NCBI RefSeq assembly: GCF_000964085.1
Contig: NZ_JZRB01000050.1
Coordinates: 1-34,820, forward strand
From: Luteibacter yeojuensis
GTDB lineage: Bacteria; Pseudomonadota; Gammaproteobacteria; Xanthomonadales; Rhodanobacteraceae
Reading direction: 5' to 3'
Length of the DNA stretch: 34,820 nucleotides
The position numbers and the translations under genes were made by a program. Positions 1,337 to 34,311 of the stretch are shown here, piece by piece; within the stretch, counting starts at the first letter, position 1; each line of letters opens with the position of its first letter. The notes beneath the pieces were generated by a model. It saw only the letters and a program-made list of their open reading frames with translations. It had not been told where the DNA came from and did no database searches.

Positions 1337-2770
1337 ATGACCGGAACGGAAGCACGGCGGCGGGCGCGCGAGGCGCTCGCGCAGGCGAAGGCAAGGGTTG
1401 CCGACAGCAAGCAAATCGACCCATTTTTCCTGGACCTCTCCCTGGGCGAGGCCCCCGATGCCGCGTGGGCGGCCGCCGGCCACCCGGTGACGTCGGTGGG
1501 GCAGGTGGATACCGCGGGCGTGTATACCCCGAGCCCCTGCCAGGAGGCCCTTCGCGGCCGGGAAGTGCCGAGCATCGTGAAGCAGGTGTACCTTGGCGAG
1601 GCGGGCATGCGCGGCCGTTACGACCGCGAGGCGTTGCGCCGTAGCCTGCCTGAGAGCGTCATGTGGCTCATGGAGCACGTGCGCGGGGAGAAGGGCGGGG
1701 CGCCACGCATCTATATCCAGGTTCCCGATGGCTGCACCGCCCTGGCGGAGGCACCGGAGGACACGCTGGCGATCCTTGAACTACTGGCCGGGCTGCCCCT
1801 CGAGGGCGTCGCGCTGGATGAAGACATGACCACGACCGAACAAGCGATCCTCACCGAAGATTTCGGGGTCTATAAGACCCTGCTCGAATCCACCCGGGCC
1901 ATCCCGTGGAAGATCGACTGGGCGACGCTGCGCTTCGCGTACATCGGCCCGCAGATCGAAGAGCTGCTCGGCTGGAGCCCGCAAAGCTGGCAGACGGTGC
2001 AGGACTGGGCCGATCGCATGCACCCGGAAGACCGCGAGTGGGTCTTCAACTTCTGCGTCTCGCAGTCGCAGGCGGGTATCGACCACGAGGCCGATTACCG
2101 TGCGTTGCGCAAGGACGGTGAGTTCACGTGGATCCGCGATGTGGTGCATGTGGTGCGCAACGACGATGGCACGCCGAACGCGCTGATCGGCTTCATGTTC
2201 GATATCAGCGAACGCAAGCGCACCGAAGAAAAGCTTCTGAACATGCAGCGCGAGCTCGAGGAGCTGTCGTTCAAGGACGGCCTCACCGGGGTCGCCAACC
2301 GCCGCCGTTTCGACGCGGTGGTGGACCTGCGCTGGCGCGAGGCACGCGATGCCCGCCAGCCGCTGTCGGTGGTCGTGCTCGATATCGACTACTTCAAGCA
2401 ATACAACGACCATTACGGCCACCTCGAGGGCGACGAGTGCCTGAAGCGCGTGGCACGCGCGCTTGCCGGCATCGTGCGCAGCGGCGACGACCTGTTGTGC
2501 CGCTTCGGTGGCGAAGAGTTCGTGCTGCTACTGCCGAACACCGACGCCGCGGCCGCCATGGCACTGGCGTGGCGCTGCCTCGACCTGGTCGACAAGGCGC
2601 TTATCCCCCACGCGGGGGTGGGCCACGACAAGCGCCTCACGCTCAGCGCCGGCGTCAACACGCTGGTACCGGGCGAGGGCGATGCCGTGCTGCCCTTCAT
2701 CGGCGTGGCCGATAGCCGCCTCTACAAGGCGAAGGAACGCGGCCGCCACCGCGTGGTGGCGGAAGGTTAG
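1337..2770 (+). CDS. PAS-GGDEF diguanylate cyclase with an unrecognised N-terminal region
   Basis: It probably makes cyclic di-GMP from two GTP. From ATG 1337 the protein has 477 residues. The frame is open further upstream to a TTG at 1283. Residues 1-160 match nothing I recognise. A PAS_3-like domain follows at about 175-295 ('FAYIGPQIEELLGW', 'MHPEDREWV', 'IGFMFDISERKRTE'), then a short coiled linker and a GGDEF domain ('FKDGLTGVANRRRFD', 'VLDIDYFKQYND', GGEEF at about 391-395). The RSGD sequence upstream of GGEEF is shifted by one residue relative to the usual inhibitory RxxD spacing, so product inhibition may be absent. An internal ATG at 1826 would give a normal 314-residue PAS-GGDEF protein, so the N-terminal block may be a fusion or an overlong start call. 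The stop overlaps the stop of the convergent rhamnosidase gene by a few bases (TTAG, 2767-2770). Confidence 0.85.
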   Translation: MTGTEARRRAREALAQAKARVADSKQIDPFFLDLSLGEAPDAAWAAAGHPVTSVGQVDTAGVYTPSPCQEALRGREVPSIVKQVYLGEAGMRGRYDREALRRSLPESVMWLMEHVRGEKGGAPRIYIQVPDGCTALAEAPEDTLAILELLAGLPLEGVALDEDMTTTEQAILTEDFGVYKTLLESTRAIPWKIDWATLRFAYIGPQIEELLGWSPQSWQTVQDWADRMHPEDREWVFNFCVSQSQAGIDHEADYRALRKDGEFTWIRDVVHVVRNDDGTPNALIGFMFDISERKRTEEKLLNMQRELEELSFKDGLTGVANRRRFDAVVDLRWREARDARQPLSVVVLDIDYFKQYNDHYGHLEGDECLKRVARALAGIVRSGDDLLCRFGGEEFVLLLPNTDAAAAMALAWRCLDLVDKALIPHAGVGHDKRLTLSAGVNTLVPGEGDAVLPFIGVADSRLYKAKERGRHRVVAEG

Positions 2771-5556
2771 TTCGTCGTCGCCGTGTAGTGGTACACACCG
2801 CTGCCGGTGGTGAAGTGCACGCCCAGCGCATCGGCCCGGGCGCCCGTGATACCGGGGGCCGCCGTGAGCGGCCGGCCGTCCACCGTCACGTCGTCGATGC
2901 GTGCCGCCGGTAGCGTCACGTAGGCCGTGGTGTTGAACGGTACCGCGATATCGCCGCGCATGTGCACGCCGTCCACGGCCCACGACGAGGCGATGTCGCC
3001 GTAGGGCGATGCCAGGCGCATGCTGGCGTGGCCGAGGCCACCGCCCGGCAGCGGCACGATGGTGATCTCGCGGTAGCCCGGCGCGGCCGGTGCTATGCCG
3101 CCGATGGTGCGGAACATCCAGTCACCCACGGCACCGTACGCATAGTGGTTGAATGAATTCATGGTGACATCGCCGAAGTGGCCGTCGGGTGCCAGCGAGT
3201 TCCAACGTTCCCACATCGTGGTGGCCCCCGAAACCACTTCGTAGCCCCACGAGGGGTAGTCCGTATTCATCAGCAGCGTGTACGCGAGCGCGGGGTGGCC
3301 ACCACGCACCAGCGCGTCGAGCAGCCATGGCGTGCCGAGGAAGCCCGTGGACAGGTGGTCGTGGCGCGCGTGCACGCGCTCGGCAAGGCGCCCGGCCAGC
3401 CGGGTGGCCTGCGCCGCGTCCACCAGTTGCATGCCAATGGCCATCGCGTACGAGGTCTGGCTGTCGCTGAGGGTGCGGCCGTCGTGGATGTAGCGCTGCT
3501 GGAAGGCCGCCGCGGCGTTCGTCGCCAGGGTGGCGTAGCGCGTGGCGTCCGCGTCCTTGCCGATCGCGCGGGCCATGCCCGCCATCAGGCGCGCGTCGTA
3601 AGCGAGGTACGCGGTGCCGAGCAGGTCCAGTGGTGTCTTGTCGTCGAGGTGCAGCCAGTCGCCGTAGTTGCCGTGCGTGCGCGAAAGCGCGGGCCCTGCG
3701 ATCGCCTCGATACGGGCCATGAAGCGTTGCATCGCATCGTAGTTTTCCTCGATGACGTGCGTATCGCCATAGGCCTGCCACACGGCGTGCGTGACGGTGA
3801 CCGACGCGTCCGCCCAGCCGGTGCCGCCATCGATCCCGATGGGGTCGGGGGCCACGCCGGGGAAGTCGCCATCCGGCTTCTGCGTGTCACGCAGGTCGCG
3901 CAGCCACTTCGTGAGGAAGCCATCGGTATTGGCCAGGGTGCTGGCCGTGGGCGCGAACACGTTGATGTCGCCTGTCCAGCCAAGGCGCTCGTCGCGGGCG
4001 GGTGTATCGGTCGGGATCGACACGAAATTGCCGCGCTGGCCCCAGCGGATGTTCGACAGCAGCTGGTTGAGCATGGGGCTGGAGGTGGTGAGTACGCCTG
4101 TTTCGGGCAGGTCGCTGCCCCATACCTCGCCACGGATGTCGCTGGCGGCGGGGGCGTCGTCGAGCCCGCTGACCTCGACGTAGCGAAAGCCGTGGAAGGT
4201 GAAGGCGGGGGCCCAATCCACCGTGCCGTCGTGGCCGAACGTGTAGTGGTCGGTGGCCTTCGCGCTGCGCAGGTTCGCGGTGTAGAGCGAGCCATCGGGG
4301 TTGAGCATTTCGCCGTAGCGCAACGTGACGCGCTGGCCCGGCTTGCCGTGCAGGCGAACGCGTACCACGCCCACCATGTTCTGGCCGAGGTCGTACAGCG
4401 TGGCGCCCTGCGTTGGCTGGCGGTCGAGGCGCCTGGCCTCGCGCGTCTCGGTGACGCGCACGGGCGCGTCGGCCTGTGCCTGCAGCAAGGCATCGGCGTT
4501 CGCCAGCGTGCGGACGGGGCGCCATCCCTTGCCCGCCGCGCCCGGCTCGTCCCAGTGCGCCGGCAGGCGGCGCGCGTCGTGGTCCTCGCCCATGATCATG
4601 TCGGCGGCCACCAGCGGCCCCGCATGCGCCTGCCACGCGGCGTCGGTGGTGATCCACTGGCTGCTGCCGTCGGCGAAGTCGAGCCGCAGGCGCGCGAGCA
4701 GCGAGGGCTCCTTGCCGTACTTGCCCGGCCCAAAGGAGGCGATGGACCCCGCGTACCACCCCGGGGCAAGCATGGCGCCGAGCATGTTCTCACCCTCGCG
4801 CAAGGCAGCCGTGACATCGTAGGCCTGGTAGTCGATGCGCTTGTGGTAGTCGGTCCAGCCGGGCGCGAGGCGTTCATCGCCCACGGGCTGGCCATTGAGG
4901 CGGAGGGCGTAGGCACCGCGTGCGGTGGCGTAAAGGCGTGCGCGGACGACGGGCTTGTCGAGGGTGAACGCGCGGCGCAGCAGCGGCAGGCTCTTTGCGC
5001 CAGCCGCGCCGGTGATCCATGCGGCCGGCCATTCGCGTGCGGCGCCCAGGCCCTCCTCGAACGTCGCGGGCGCGCTCCATGCCGACCACTGGCCGCGGTC
5101 GTCGCGGACGCGCACCTGCCAGCGGTAGCCGGCCTGCGGCACCAGCGCCGGGCCGGCGTACGGCACGCCTACCTGCTGCGAGGACGCCACCACGCCGCTA
5201 TGCCAGGCACGGCCACCGCCGAACACGGGTTCGACGGTGAGTTCGTAGGCGGCCTGTGTCGCGCCGCGGCGCAGGCTTTCGCTGGCCCAGCCGAAGCGCG
5301 GGGCGAGGTCATCGAGCACGAATAGACCTCGCGGCGCATCGGCACCCTGTGGGAGCGCGCTCGCGCGCGATGCACTTGCCGCAGGCCCCATCGCGCGCAA
5401 GCGCGCTCCCACAGGTGCCGCGGGGGCACCGTTGAGGCTCAGCGTGGTCACGAGCGGCGGCGTGTTCGCGGCCGGCGGCGGGGCCGCGGGGCGCGTGGCG
5501 CATGCGGCGAGCAGTACGGTGGCCGCGAGCGCGGCCGGCATCGGCGAACGGGGCAT
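2767..5556 (-). CDS. GH78 alpha-L-rhamnosidase, predicted lipoprotein
   Basis: The 929-residue protein should hydrolyse terminal alpha-L-rhamnose from glycosides or polysaccharides. The N-terminus is a lipoprotein signal with lipobox LAAC (Cys19), followed by a Pro/Ala-rich linker, so it is probably membrane-anchored facing the periplasm or cell surface. GH78 hallmarks are clear: an N-terminal beta domain ('APRFGWASESLRRGATQAAY'), the carbohydrate-binding segment 'YATARGAYALRLNG', the catalytic-domain motif 'DTPARDERLGWTGDINVFAP' with acidic residues of the active site, 'GTGWADASVTV', and 'NSFNHYAYGAVGDW'. The start at 5556 has a good AGGGAG site 6 nt upstream. Residues of about 48-70 (GARLRAMGPAASASRASALP) are encoded by a 66-bp REP-like palindrome inserted in frame between the signal peptide and the first domain. 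The gene lies 17 nt after serA on the same strand and may be co-transcribed with it. Confidence 0.93.
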   Translation of the reverse strand: MPRSPMPAALAATVLLAACATRPAAPPPAANTPPLVTTLSLNGAPAAPVGARLRAMGPAASASRASALPQGADAPRGLFVLDDLAPRFGWASESLRRGATQAAYELTVEPVFGGGRAWHSGVVASSQQVGVPYAGPALVPQAGYRWQVRVRDDRGQWSAWSAPATFEEGLGAAREWPAAWITGAAGAKSLPLLRRAFTLDKPVVRARLYATARGAYALRLNGQPVGDERLAPGWTDYHKRIDYQAYDVTAALREGENMLGAMLAPGWYAGSIASFGPGKYGKEPSLLARLRLDFADGSSQWITTDAAWQAHAGPLVAADMIMGEDHDARRLPAHWDEPGAAGKGWRPVRTLANADALLQAQADAPVRVTETREARRLDRQPTQGATLYDLGQNMVGVVRVRLHGKPGQRVTLRYGEMLNPDGSLYTANLRSAKATDHYTFGHDGTVDWAPAFTFHGFRYVEVSGLDDAPAASDIRGEVWGSDLPETGVLTTSSPMLNQLLSNIRWGQRGNFVSIPTDTPARDERLGWTGDINVFAPTASTLANTDGFLTKWLRDLRDTQKPDGDFPGVAPDPIGIDGGTGWADASVTVTHAVWQAYGDTHVIEENYDAMQRFMARIEAIAGPALSRTHGNYGDWLHLDDKTPLDLLGTAYLAYDARLMAGMARAIGKDADATRYATLATNAAAAFQQRYIHDGRTLSDSQTSYAMAIGMQLVDAAQATRLAGRLAERVHARHDHLSTGFLGTPWLLDALVRGGHPALAYTLLMNTDYPSWGYEVVSGATTMWERWNSLAPDGHFGDVTMNSFNHYAYGAVGDWMFRTIGGIAPAAPGYREITIVPLPGGGLGHASMRLASPYGDIASSWAVDGVHMRGDIAVPFNTTAYVTLPAARIDDVTVDGRPLTAAPGITGARADALGVHFTTGSGVYHYTATTN
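5348..5413. repeat. REP-like palindrome (subtype A, 66 bp) inside the rhamnosidase coding region
   Basis: It begins TGTGGGAGCGCGCTCGCG and ends with the near-complement CGCAAGCGCGCTCCCACA. Length and sequence match the copies at 12329-12394 and 13111-13176, differing from the latter at only a handful of positions. Here it is not intergenic: it is read in frame on the minus strand as 22 codons (66 = 22 x 3), so it adds a peptide without breaking the gene. Confidence 0.9.
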
Positions 5557-9312: not shown

Positions 9313-9382
9313 CTGTAGGAGCCCACCCTGTGGGCGACAGTTTTTCGCGAAGAGCTGTCGCCCACGGAGTGGGCTCCTACAG
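9313..9382. repeat. REP-like palindrome (subtype B) right after pip
   Basis: It begins CTGTAGGAGCCCACCCTGTG and ends with the complement GTGGGCTCCTACAG, with 'GGGCGACAG' and 'CTGTCGCCC' forming the inner arms. It starts 4 nt after the pip stop codon. The same subtype, longer, occurs at 27498-27594. Confidence 0.85.
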
Positions 9383-12328: not shown

Positions 12329-12394
12329 TGTGGGAGCGCGCTTGCGCGCGATGGGGGCATGGGTACGTCCATCGCGCGCAAGCGCGCTCCCACA
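12329..12394. repeat. REP-like palindrome (subtype A, 66 bp) between upp and the nuclease gene
   Basis: It starts TGTGGGAGCGCGCTTGCG and ends in the complementary GCAAGCGCGCTCCCACA, 20 nt after the upp stop codon. A T7 run follows on the plus strand. Confidence 0.9.
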
Positions 12395-13110: not shown

Positions 13111-13176
13111 TGTGGGAGCGCGCTTGCGCGCGATGTACTTGCGGCAAGCCCCATCGCGCGCAAGCGCGCTCCCACA
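13111..13176. repeat. REP-like palindrome (subtype A, 66 bp) between psiF-like gene and upp
   Basis: It begins TGTGGGAGCGCGCTTGCGCG and ends CGCAAGCGCGCTCCCACA, 24 nt after the stop of the PsiF-like gene. Length is identical to the copies at 5348 and 12329. Confidence 0.92.
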
Positions 13177-13593: not shown

Positions 13594-13666
13594 ACCTGTA
13601 GGAGCGCGCTTGCGCGCGATGGGGCATGCCGCAACACCCATCGCGCGCAAGCGCGCTCCTACAGGT
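13594..13666. repeat. REP-like palindrome (subtype A variant) abutting the aminotransferase stop codon
   Basis: ACCTGTAGGAGCGCGCTTGC (from 13594) pairs with its near-complement ending GCGCTCCTACAGGT at 13666, the first base of the complement of the aminotransferase stop codon (13666-13668). On the minus strand the hairpin is followed two bases later by six T (complement of A at 13586-13591), so it probably doubles as the intrinsic terminator of the aminotransferase gene. Confidence 0.9.
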
Positions 13667-15162
13667 CAGGCGGCCTTGTCCGCCGAGCGGCGGGGGCCTT
13701 CGAGGAGGGCGTGGCGCACCTCGTCGATGATGAGGTCCACCTCGGCGCTGGTGACGCGGAAGTGCGGGGTGAAGCGCAGCGAGTTGGCGCCGCCGTGGAT
13801 GACACCGATGCCGCGCTCGCGCATGTATTCCTCGGTGGAGCCCTCGCCGTAGCACTTGAACTCCGGCGCCAGCTCGCACGAGAACAGCAGGCCGGTGCCC
13901 TGCACCTTGGTGATGAGGCCGCCCAGCTCCGACTTCAGCGCATCGAGCTTCTTGATGAACTCGTGGCCGCGGTCGCGGATGTTGGCGCGCACCGCGGGGG
14001 TGAGCTCGGCCATGGTGGCGAGCGCGGTGTCGAGCGCGCGCGGGTTGGCCGTCATGGTGTTGCCGTAGATGCCCTTGCGGTACAGGCCGGCCACGCGCTC
14101 GGAGACGGCAAGCACCGACAGCGGGTACTGGCCGGCGTTGAGCGCCTTGGAGAAGGTTTCCAGATCCGGCGCGTCGAGCTTGTCGAAGCCCGGGTAGTCG
14201 ATGATCGACAGCACGCCGTGCGCGCGCAGTCCGGCCTGGATCGAATCGACCAGCAGCAGGGTGCCGTGATCGCGGGTGAGCTCGCGCGCCGCGGCGTAGA
14301 ACTCCGGCGTGACCGCGCGGCCCGGGTCGCCTTCGCCCATCACCGGCTCGAGGAACATGGCCTCGATGAACCAGCCGTGGCGCTCGGCGTCGGCGAACAC
14401 CTGCTTCAGCTGGGCGACGTTGTACGGCTCCACCGTGAGGAGGGTGTCCTCGTTGCGGTAGCTGGCCAGGTGCTGCTGGTAGTTCTTGCGCGATGAATCG
14501 GAATACAGCGCCGGGCGCTCGGTGCGGCCATGGAAGGCGCCCTTGACCGCGAGGCGCTTGATGGTGCGGCCGGCGTGGCGTGCGCCCGGGTCGGTCATGA
14601 GGCGTGCGTTGACGTCCGCGATGCGGCCGGCGAGGGTGACCGATTCCGAACCGGAATTGAGGCAGAGGAAGTGCGTGTAGGGGCTGCCGCCACGGGTGTG
14701 GCCGAGCTCCTTGCGCAGGGCCTCGCTGAGGCGCAGCTGCGAGACGTTGGCGGTCATGACGTTGGCCATGACCTGCGGGCGCGACATGGCCTCGCGGATG
14801 GGCTCCGGGTTGTGGCCGAAGCCCAGCATGCCGTAGCCGCCGTTGTCGTGGAGCACGGCGCCTTTCAGGGTCACCACCCACGCGCCGCGCGCGGCGGCCG
14901 GCACATACGGGTTCACGCCGTCATCGGGGTAGAAGTTCACCAGGCCATGCTGCAGGTGGTGGATCTGCGCGGCCTCATCCATGCGCAGGAAGTCGGCCAT
15001 GTCGGCGCGAAGGGCCTGGTGGTAGGCAGCGGCCTCTTCGACCGCGCGGCGCAGGTCGGCGTCGTGCGCGGCGAAGCGCTCGATGGTGGCATCGGGCAGG
15101 CCGGTGGTGCGGGCCTTGCCGCCGAAGTCGCGCATCTCGCGCAGGGTAGCGATGACGTTCAT
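13666..15162 (-). CDS. Class-III PLP-dependent aminotransferase
   Basis: A 498-residue fold-type I aminotransferase of the ornithine/acetylornithine/GABA group. Visible features: the cofactor-binding 'NSGSESVTLAGRIAD' (about 169-183), 'GAFHGRT' (209-215), the PLP-pyridine Asp306 in 'LLLVDSIQAG', and the Schiff-base Lys339 in 'TFSKAL'. The usual D-E-x-Q-T-G motif here reads D-S-I-Q-A-G, so it belongs to a divergent subgroup. An N-terminal extension of about 90 residues precedes the catalytic fold and makes it longer than ArgD or RocD (about 400). The start at ATG 15162 has GAGGA 6 nt upstream; an upstream TTG-type extension to 15183 has no support. Substrate is not predictable from sequence. 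No pathway partner adjoins. Confidence 0.88.
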   Translation of the reverse strand: MNVIATLREMRDFGGKARTTGLPDATIERFAAHDADLRRAVEEAAAYHQALRADMADFLRMDEAAQIHHLQHGLVNFYPDDGVNPYVPAAARGAWVVTLKGAVLHDNGGYGMLGFGHNPEPIREAMSRPQVMANVMTANVSQLRLSEALRKELGHTRGGSPYTHFLCLNSGSESVTLAGRIADVNARLMTDPGARHAGRTIKRLAVKGAFHGRTERPALYSDSSRKNYQQHLASYRNEDTLLTVEPYNVAQLKQVFADAERHGWFIEAMFLEPVMGEGDPGRAVTPEFYAAARELTRDHGTLLLVDSIQAGLRAHGVLSIIDYPGFDKLDAPDLETFSKALNAGQYPLSVLAVSERVAGLYRKGIYGNTMTANPRALDTALATMAELTPAVRANIRDRGHEFIKKLDALKSELGGLITKVQGTGLLFSCELAPEFKCYGEGSTEEYMRERGIGVIHGGANSLRFTPHFRVTSAEVDLIIDEVRHALLEGPRRSADKAA

Positions 15163-15180
15163 GGTTGTCCTCGGAAAAAA

Positions 15181-15205
15181 CATCGCGCGCTAGCGCGCTC
15201 CCACA
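15181..15205. repeat. Half REP-like element in the leader of the aminotransferase gene
   Basis: CATCGCGCGCTAGCGCGCTC followed by CCACA matches the right arm of the subtype A repeat. It includes a perfect 14-bp palindrome, GCGCGCTAGCGCGC (15185-15198). It lies directly upstream of the ribosome site of the aminotransferase gene. The AT-rich stretch at 15236-15265 beyond it is the likeliest place for that gene's promoter. Confidence 0.75.
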
Positions 15206-27497: not shown

Positions 27498-27594
27498 TGT
27501 AGGAGCGCACCCTGTGCGCGACGCCTTTCGCGGCGGCGCCACAGGGCCTGTTGCGTTTGGCGAAGAGCTGTCGCCCACGGGGTGGGCTCCTACA
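27498..27594. repeat. REP-like palindrome (subtype B, 97 bp) between cheA and cheW
   Basis: TGTAGGAGCGCACCCTGTGC at the left and TGGGCTCCTACA at the right form the outer arms, with 'ACAGGGCC' and 'CTGTCGCCC' inner elements. It starts directly at the base after the cheA stop, within an operon. It could stabilise the upstream message or lower downstream expression. Confidence 0.85.
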
Positions 27595-34216: not shown

Positions 34217-34311
34217 TGTAGGAGCGCGCTCGCGCGCGACGCCTTTCGCGAGAGAGCCACAGGGCCTGTTACGTCCCGCGAAACGATGTCGCGCGCAAGC
34301 GCGCTCCTACA
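34217..34311. repeat. REP-like palindrome (subtype B hybrid, 95 bp) after the last chemotaxis gene
   Basis: Outer arms TGTAGGAGCGCGCTCGCGCG and GCAAGCGCGCTCCTACA match subtype A, while the middle (GCCTTTCGCG ... CACAGGGCCTGTT) matches the 27498-27594 copy. So the element combines both subtypes. It begins 9 nt after the STAS stop codon. Confidence 0.88.

Follow-up and report, generated by a model that had tools for sequence, protein, structure and literature searches.

The closest described counterparts of the insert reported here are GTAG-type REPs which lie inside open reading frames, as monomers as well as dimers, and encode 20 to 30 residues (BMC Genomics 2013;14:522, PMC3733652). According to this paper, dimers are common, the REPs are found near the termini of the ORFs or inside them, REPs provide the TAG stop of neighbouring ORFs, and two Xanthomonas species carry different REPs at nearly the same position in recB. 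The paper also equates some intragenic REPs with the Rickettsia palindromic elements, being described as mobile palindromes inserted in frame into unrelated genes, to whose products they add peptides (PMC10969869). Small mobile sequences of enterobacteria, which belong to other repeat families and other hosts than the case described here, likewise have open frames inside genes and were proposed as a source of peptides (PMC2759123). The REPIN/RAYT systems are described as inverted REPs paired across a spacer, present in hundreds of mostly extragenic copies together with genes for RAYTs, the REP-associated tyrosine transposases (PMC3116915, PMC8266576), and in Pseudomonas fluorescens SBW25, 14 of 1,067 REP 16-mers overlap genes (PMC3116915). 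Our literature search for Luteibacter REPs, in-frame REPINs and cobD palindromes, covering titles and abstract openings, gave nothing relevant beyond PMC3733652. The principle of intragenic REPs is already published, and the insert described here adds a case.

The window, by which we mean the whole 34,820-nt stretch of DNA analysed, contains a GH78 alpha-L-rhamnosidase gene of 929 codons (2767-5556, minus strand), which hosts a 66-nt REPIN at 5348-5413 on the minus strand. Two inverted GTGG-headed REPs are separated by a short spacer, as in GTAG-type REPINs, and the element fills 5348-5413 exactly from end to end (TGTGGGAG...CTCCCACA), the inverted pair also being written TGTGGGAGCGCGC...GCGCGCTCCCACA. 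Both arms carry the GTGGGAG tag and the GCGCGC stem, which places them with the GTAG/GTGG-type REPs. The element is read in frame as 22 codons, giving residues 49-70 (VGARLRAMGPAASASRASALPQ), and no stop occurs across it, the ORF staying open. The sequence-only reading, which had described a REP-like palindrome translated in frame inside the rhamnosidase gene, is therefore borne out. The RNA strand of the element is predicted to fold into a hairpin of -74.5 kcal/mol (z -10.9), and, when up to two mismatches are allowed, the arm pattern is found in the same genome 238 times forward and 224 times in reverse (462 arms), where the reversed pattern gives no match in either direction at the same tolerance; together, the counts and the hairpin argue that the element is not a chance palindrome.

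The GH78 protein has five Pfam domains above the cut-offs, including GH78 domains, and a lipoprotein-like signal, the lipobox being judged by eye. The coding stretch upstream of the insert (5414-5556, minus strand) encodes the signal peptide and the motif LVTTLSLNG, which is conserved as VVKGLRIDG in the closest orthologue found (G001, same genus, 75% identity) and as, for example, VTDLRTN in others. In the homologue alignment this motif precedes the insert and the remainder of an Ig-like domain follows it, so the element is not placed between the signal and the first domain, as had been thought, but, within the N-terminal Ig-like domain, past its first conserved motif. The match to Pfam PF25788 sets in at position 14 of the profile for the window protein, at 11 for G001 and at 1 for the orthologue G014, which agrees with an interrupted start of the domain. 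Overall, the confidence of the AlphaFold model is high (mean pLDDT 85.0, pTM 0.86); residues 1-72 have a pLDDT below 50 and no strand is formed before residue 76, so that the proposed first strand is absent and the assignment of the upstream motif to the domain rests on the sequence comparison. The insert is a low-complexity segment, which the model suggests to be probably disordered, and the low pLDDT of residues 1-72 may instead come from alignment gaps.

The N-terminal position raises the question of whether the REPIN is untranslated 5' sequence, with the gene truly starting downstream of it and the apparent N-terminus spurious. The codon-usage gene caller did at first choose position 5319, which is downstream of the insert, as the start, and PMC3733652 warns that many N-terminal REPs are misannotations. 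However, the caller trimmed the start because the REP codons score badly, and with these codons set neutral it shifts upstream to 5541. The G001 orthologue has an N-terminal lipoprotein signal of the same kind, the start region (CACCAGGGA...CACCGATG, of which CACCAGGGA is ribosome-binding-like) is conserved between the two genes, and the ATG at 5556 is the start that agrees with the orthologue. Over the 46 aligned codons 5' of the insert, the two genes show 17, 14 and 27 differences at codon positions 1, 2 and 3. Starting downstream, the protein would moreover lose both its signal and this first conserved stretch of the Ig-like domain, the motif LVTTLSLNG, and the position of the insert past this motif makes such a start unlikely; we regard an untranslated REPIN as quite improbable. 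The conserved start region upstream of an N-terminal copy, as well as the genus and the genes concerned, distinguish the GH78 insert from the cases cited here from PMC3733652.

GH78 orthologues (E <= 1e-150) are found in 5 of the 233 family genomes searched, namely the own genome, G001, G014, G019 and G145, and the alignment shows the insert to be absent in all four others. As counted on the alignment, 35 residues separate a conserved G from the (F/L)V(L/I)DD motif in the window protein and 10 do so in G001; 22 residues of this loop difference are the REPIN and 3 further residues differ. An orthologue carrying an equally long, unrelated segment at this place would have spoken against an insertion, and we find none. 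Neither the 233 family genomes nor the best 80 contig matches, from which own or very near records may have been excluded, gave an orthologue nearer than G001. The exact borders of the insertion are thus putative, the nearest comparison being an orthologue of 75% identity and not a strain-level empty site. The G001 genome has 95 exact arms of the same REP family elsewhere, so that the absence from its GH78 gene is not for want of repeats. Since the insert is missing in the closest and in three other orthologues, the insertion looks recent and lineage-specific.

The window contains seven other copies, six dimers and one single arm, none of which lies in a called gene, as the sequence-only reading had stated. 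The copies at 12329-12394 (GTRG-tag 12330-12393), of the same type as the GH78 copy, and at 13111-13176 (GTRG-tag 13112-13175) both have the 66 nt given for them. The latter is 94% identical to the GH78 copy over 67 nt, and this identity to a neighbouring copy indicates that the GH78 copy is probably young. A 67-nt REPIN with GTAG heads at 13597-13663 (GTRG-tag 13598-13662) ends at most 3 nt from the end of a gene, and the single REP arm at 15185-15204 (minus strand) is found just upstream of the start of the ORF at 13666-15183. The REPIN at 9314-9381 (GTRG-tag 9315-9380) is of the GCCCAC subtype and 68 nt long. A second, longer subtype of 95 to 97 nt is also present, with a 97-nt copy having GCGCAC/GCCCAC arms at 27498-27594 (GTRG-tag 27499-27593) and a 95-nt copy at 34217-34311 (GTRG-tag 34218-34310); arms of mixed families are common in this length class.

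The own genome comprises 4,548,902 bases in 144 contigs, in which the exact dimer pattern finds 72 complete dimers. A relaxed scan of a sample of 1,583,264 bases (35%) yields 186 dimers besides 174 single arms. Run on reversed sequence as a control, it finds 115 arms, compared with 546 in the sample. Called genes make up a fraction of 0.873 of the sample, from which about 162 dimers would be expected in genes; six are observed. The copy number is high and the copies lie mostly between genes, as is typical for GTAG-type REPs, and REPINs are strongly depleted in genes, the intragenic ones being rare survivors. The earlier suggestion that the element enters genes harmlessly is thus overstated, and its link to a length in multiples of three is not supported: only 62 of 185 dimers have such a length, and four of the seven CobD inserts described below measure 82 or 85 nt and are yet in frame overall. 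We therefore rejected divisibility by three as a general entry ticket. The comparison with the Rickettsia palindromic elements, in contrast, is apt, with a precedent for GTAG-type REPs in PMC3733652. Judged by its frame and its absence in the orthologues, the GH78 copy appears to share with them the in-frame insertion into a coding gene, a likeness in the way of working and not one of compared sequences. The Rickettsia elements are described as longer (about 150 bp) and belong to another lineage, and nearly half of them lie in genes, whereas here the share is a few percent (6 of 186 sampled dimers). From the published REPINs, the GH78 copy differs in being intragenic.

The six intragenic dimers are the GH78 copy, those in CobD and in a J-domain protein, and the dimers at C101:44947, C46:117054 and C103:7935. 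Two of them form C-terminal ends, of a membrane protein (C101:44947-45012) and of a short ORF (C46:117054-117119), respectively, and the N-terminal dimer at C103:7935, upstream of a lipoprotein-like start, is doubtful. A further dimer at C112:64300, which belongs to the N-terminal part of a secreted protein, lies outside the called genes and was recognised by comparison. Among the 18 single arms in called genes we kept three (CobS, C65:32235 and C112:63075); the other 15 were set aside, their stems not being among the common REP stems of the genome or their matches being chance-like. Of 370 reads, with both directions counted, 345 are open in the frame TGT-RGG, 335 in GTR-GGA and 151 in TRG-GAG, so that the element is mostly free of stops in two frames and the GTAG tag puts a stop into the third. 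In the 90-99 nt class, 25 of 45 dimers have arms of mixed families, and we therefore rejected the mixed arms in CobD and the J-domain gene as proof of conversion inside genes.

Three REP_Tyr_transpos (RAYT) genes are found in the genome above the NF047646 cut-off. The RAYT on contig C73 (L075:1257-1985) has REPINs of the GCCCAC type on both flanks, the arrangement of a REP-flanked RAYT, and its TAG stop is supplied by the downstream REPIN. No RAYT flanked by the GCGCGC stem type, which is that of the GH78 copy, was found in the genome. TnpAREP is described to cleave single-stranded REP at CT beside the hairpin, the GTAG being important (PMC8266576). Considering immediately adjoining repeats only, none of 182 dimers has 4 or more repeated flanking nucleotides. 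A target duplication was considered for the GGTGCC repeats around the GH78 insert and given up, as no such trend exists in the 182 dimers.

CobD, identified by the equivalog TIGR01140 (320.8 bits against a cut-off of 290.55), is matched in 16 of 23 genomes searched and has a hypervariable loop between the NNPTG and W..VDEAF motifs. A complete REP pair occupies this loop in 7 of the 16 genomes (G000, which is the own genome, G001, G003, G006, G007, G016 and G022), the own-genome insert being located at G000:C60:42826-42919, and no recognisable pair is present in the other nine, where the loop of G021 may keep a remnant. The elements are 96 nt long with GCCCAC/GCGCGC stems in G000, GCGCGC stems in G001 and GCTCAC stems in G003; those of G006, G007 and G016 (82 nt) and G022 (85 nt) have GCCGCT-like stems, and all seven are read in the V-G-A frame. 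A quick tree search on another gene, in which 9 of the 20 inner branches are starred, places the seven carriers in two groups, and the presence and absence of the insert need at least 4 changes. A single insertion could be the origin of all three 96-nt copies. The hairpins are intact while the stem sequence changes, suggesting that the inserts were either re-inserted or rewritten in place; arms of mixed families, which might point to rewriting, are frequent among long dimers in any case. This filling of one loop in 7 of 16 species by several REP families differs from the cases cited here from PMC3733652. In G006, a tandem array of a short unit (VQARAIQAG...) is found just before the REP pair of the CobD loop.

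A lone REP arm sits at one and the same codon of CobS in G000, G001 and G003; its stem is self-complementary in each and differs among the three. The 13 other genomes of the 16 lack the arm. Searched with a degenerate pattern covering the CobS stems of G001 and G003, G001 itself yields 18 arms, G003 yields 4 and G000 yields 2; G009 and G019 yield none. The 18 arms indicate that the CobS stem type of G001 is resident there, whereas in G003 the only copy found of its CobS stem is the CobS arm itself, which argues against a simple rule that the arm was taken from the resident population in that genome.

The gene of the secreted glycosidase-like protein P0006 is present in all 23 genomes and carries REP arms in one loop in five of them. 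In six of the 23, REP heads follow the start codon and precede the hydrophobic core of the signal peptide, with the starts being inferred, G003 having one recognised arm and G007 being uncertain; the own-genome REPIN of this region is at G000:C112:64300-64362. The signal regions of the close pair G006 and G016 (about 93-95% DNA identity) differ by 78 nt, in frame, and G016 has 12 nt left which resemble the 3' end of a REP. In G007, the P0006 orthologue has a second in-frame REP pair at another site in the gene, which is of the GCCGCT type. The J-domain gene contains a REP pair in G000 and G001, and none in G009 nor, by protein alignment, in G003.

We consider it very probable that a REPIN was copied into the N-terminal coding region of the GH78 gene after the split from the closest sampled relative, in frame, and was tolerated there. 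We base this reading on the sequence and frame of the insert, its absence in the orthologues found, the conserved start region upstream of it, the RAYT genes and the depletion of REPINs in genes. REPINs, as paired GTAG/GTGG-type REPs, are non-autonomous and thought to be moved by RAYT/TnpAREP, and copying mediated by a RAYT would have placed one in the loop just past the first conserved motif of the Ig-like domain. With two of the three frames usually free of stops, and 66 nt making 22 codons, the gene would have stayed open, the repeat presumably being translated in the cell as a segment tolerated by the enzyme. The copy would then have been kept because it landed in frame in a tolerant loop. 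The message would have to be read through the predicted helix of -74.5 kcal/mol, which could hinder translation.

This strong hairpin, about 140 nt past the start codon, could also be taken as a sign that the insert was selected for, the peptide or the hairpin tuning the enzyme or its expression, and, across species, CobD, CobS and the secreted protein do carry in-frame REPs repeatedly in the same loops. However, tolerance alone also predicts recurrence at loops and termini, the stems and lengths of the CobD inserts vary between species, and the GH78 insert is found in only one of five orthologues, so that selection appears slightly less probable still than an untranslated REPIN. Least probable of all is that the insert survives in a gene which is being lost, the enzyme no longer mattering: although a single lineage has the insert and the gene is scarce in relatives at the threshold used, all five domains exceed their Pfam cut-offs, the 929 codons are free of stops and frameshifts, and in the rest of the gene third-position differences to G001 dominate (373 against 129 and 110 in 856 codons).

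We put forward tentatively, as a possibility that we would not yet call likely, that the REPINs of the genus are a continuing source of protein segments, with REPs of various families taking up the same loops from species to species, some segments entering signal peptides and the GH78 copy being a fresh entry. There is good comparative evidence for the recurrent use of the same loops. As the basic idea is in print, the value lies in the comparative series and not in the principle, the step beyond published work being a series of orthologues with filled, empty and perhaps decayed loops in one genus. The GH78 insert is a clean example of a bacterial mobile repeat that has turned into part of a protein; it is apparently recent, and an orthologue conserves the coding sequence 5' of it. 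Together with the CobD, CobS and signal-peptide cases, it offers a testable system of filled versus empty protein loops within one genus, in which one could measure what such segments cost in fitness, how translation copes with a very stable hairpin and how REP families turn over within genes.
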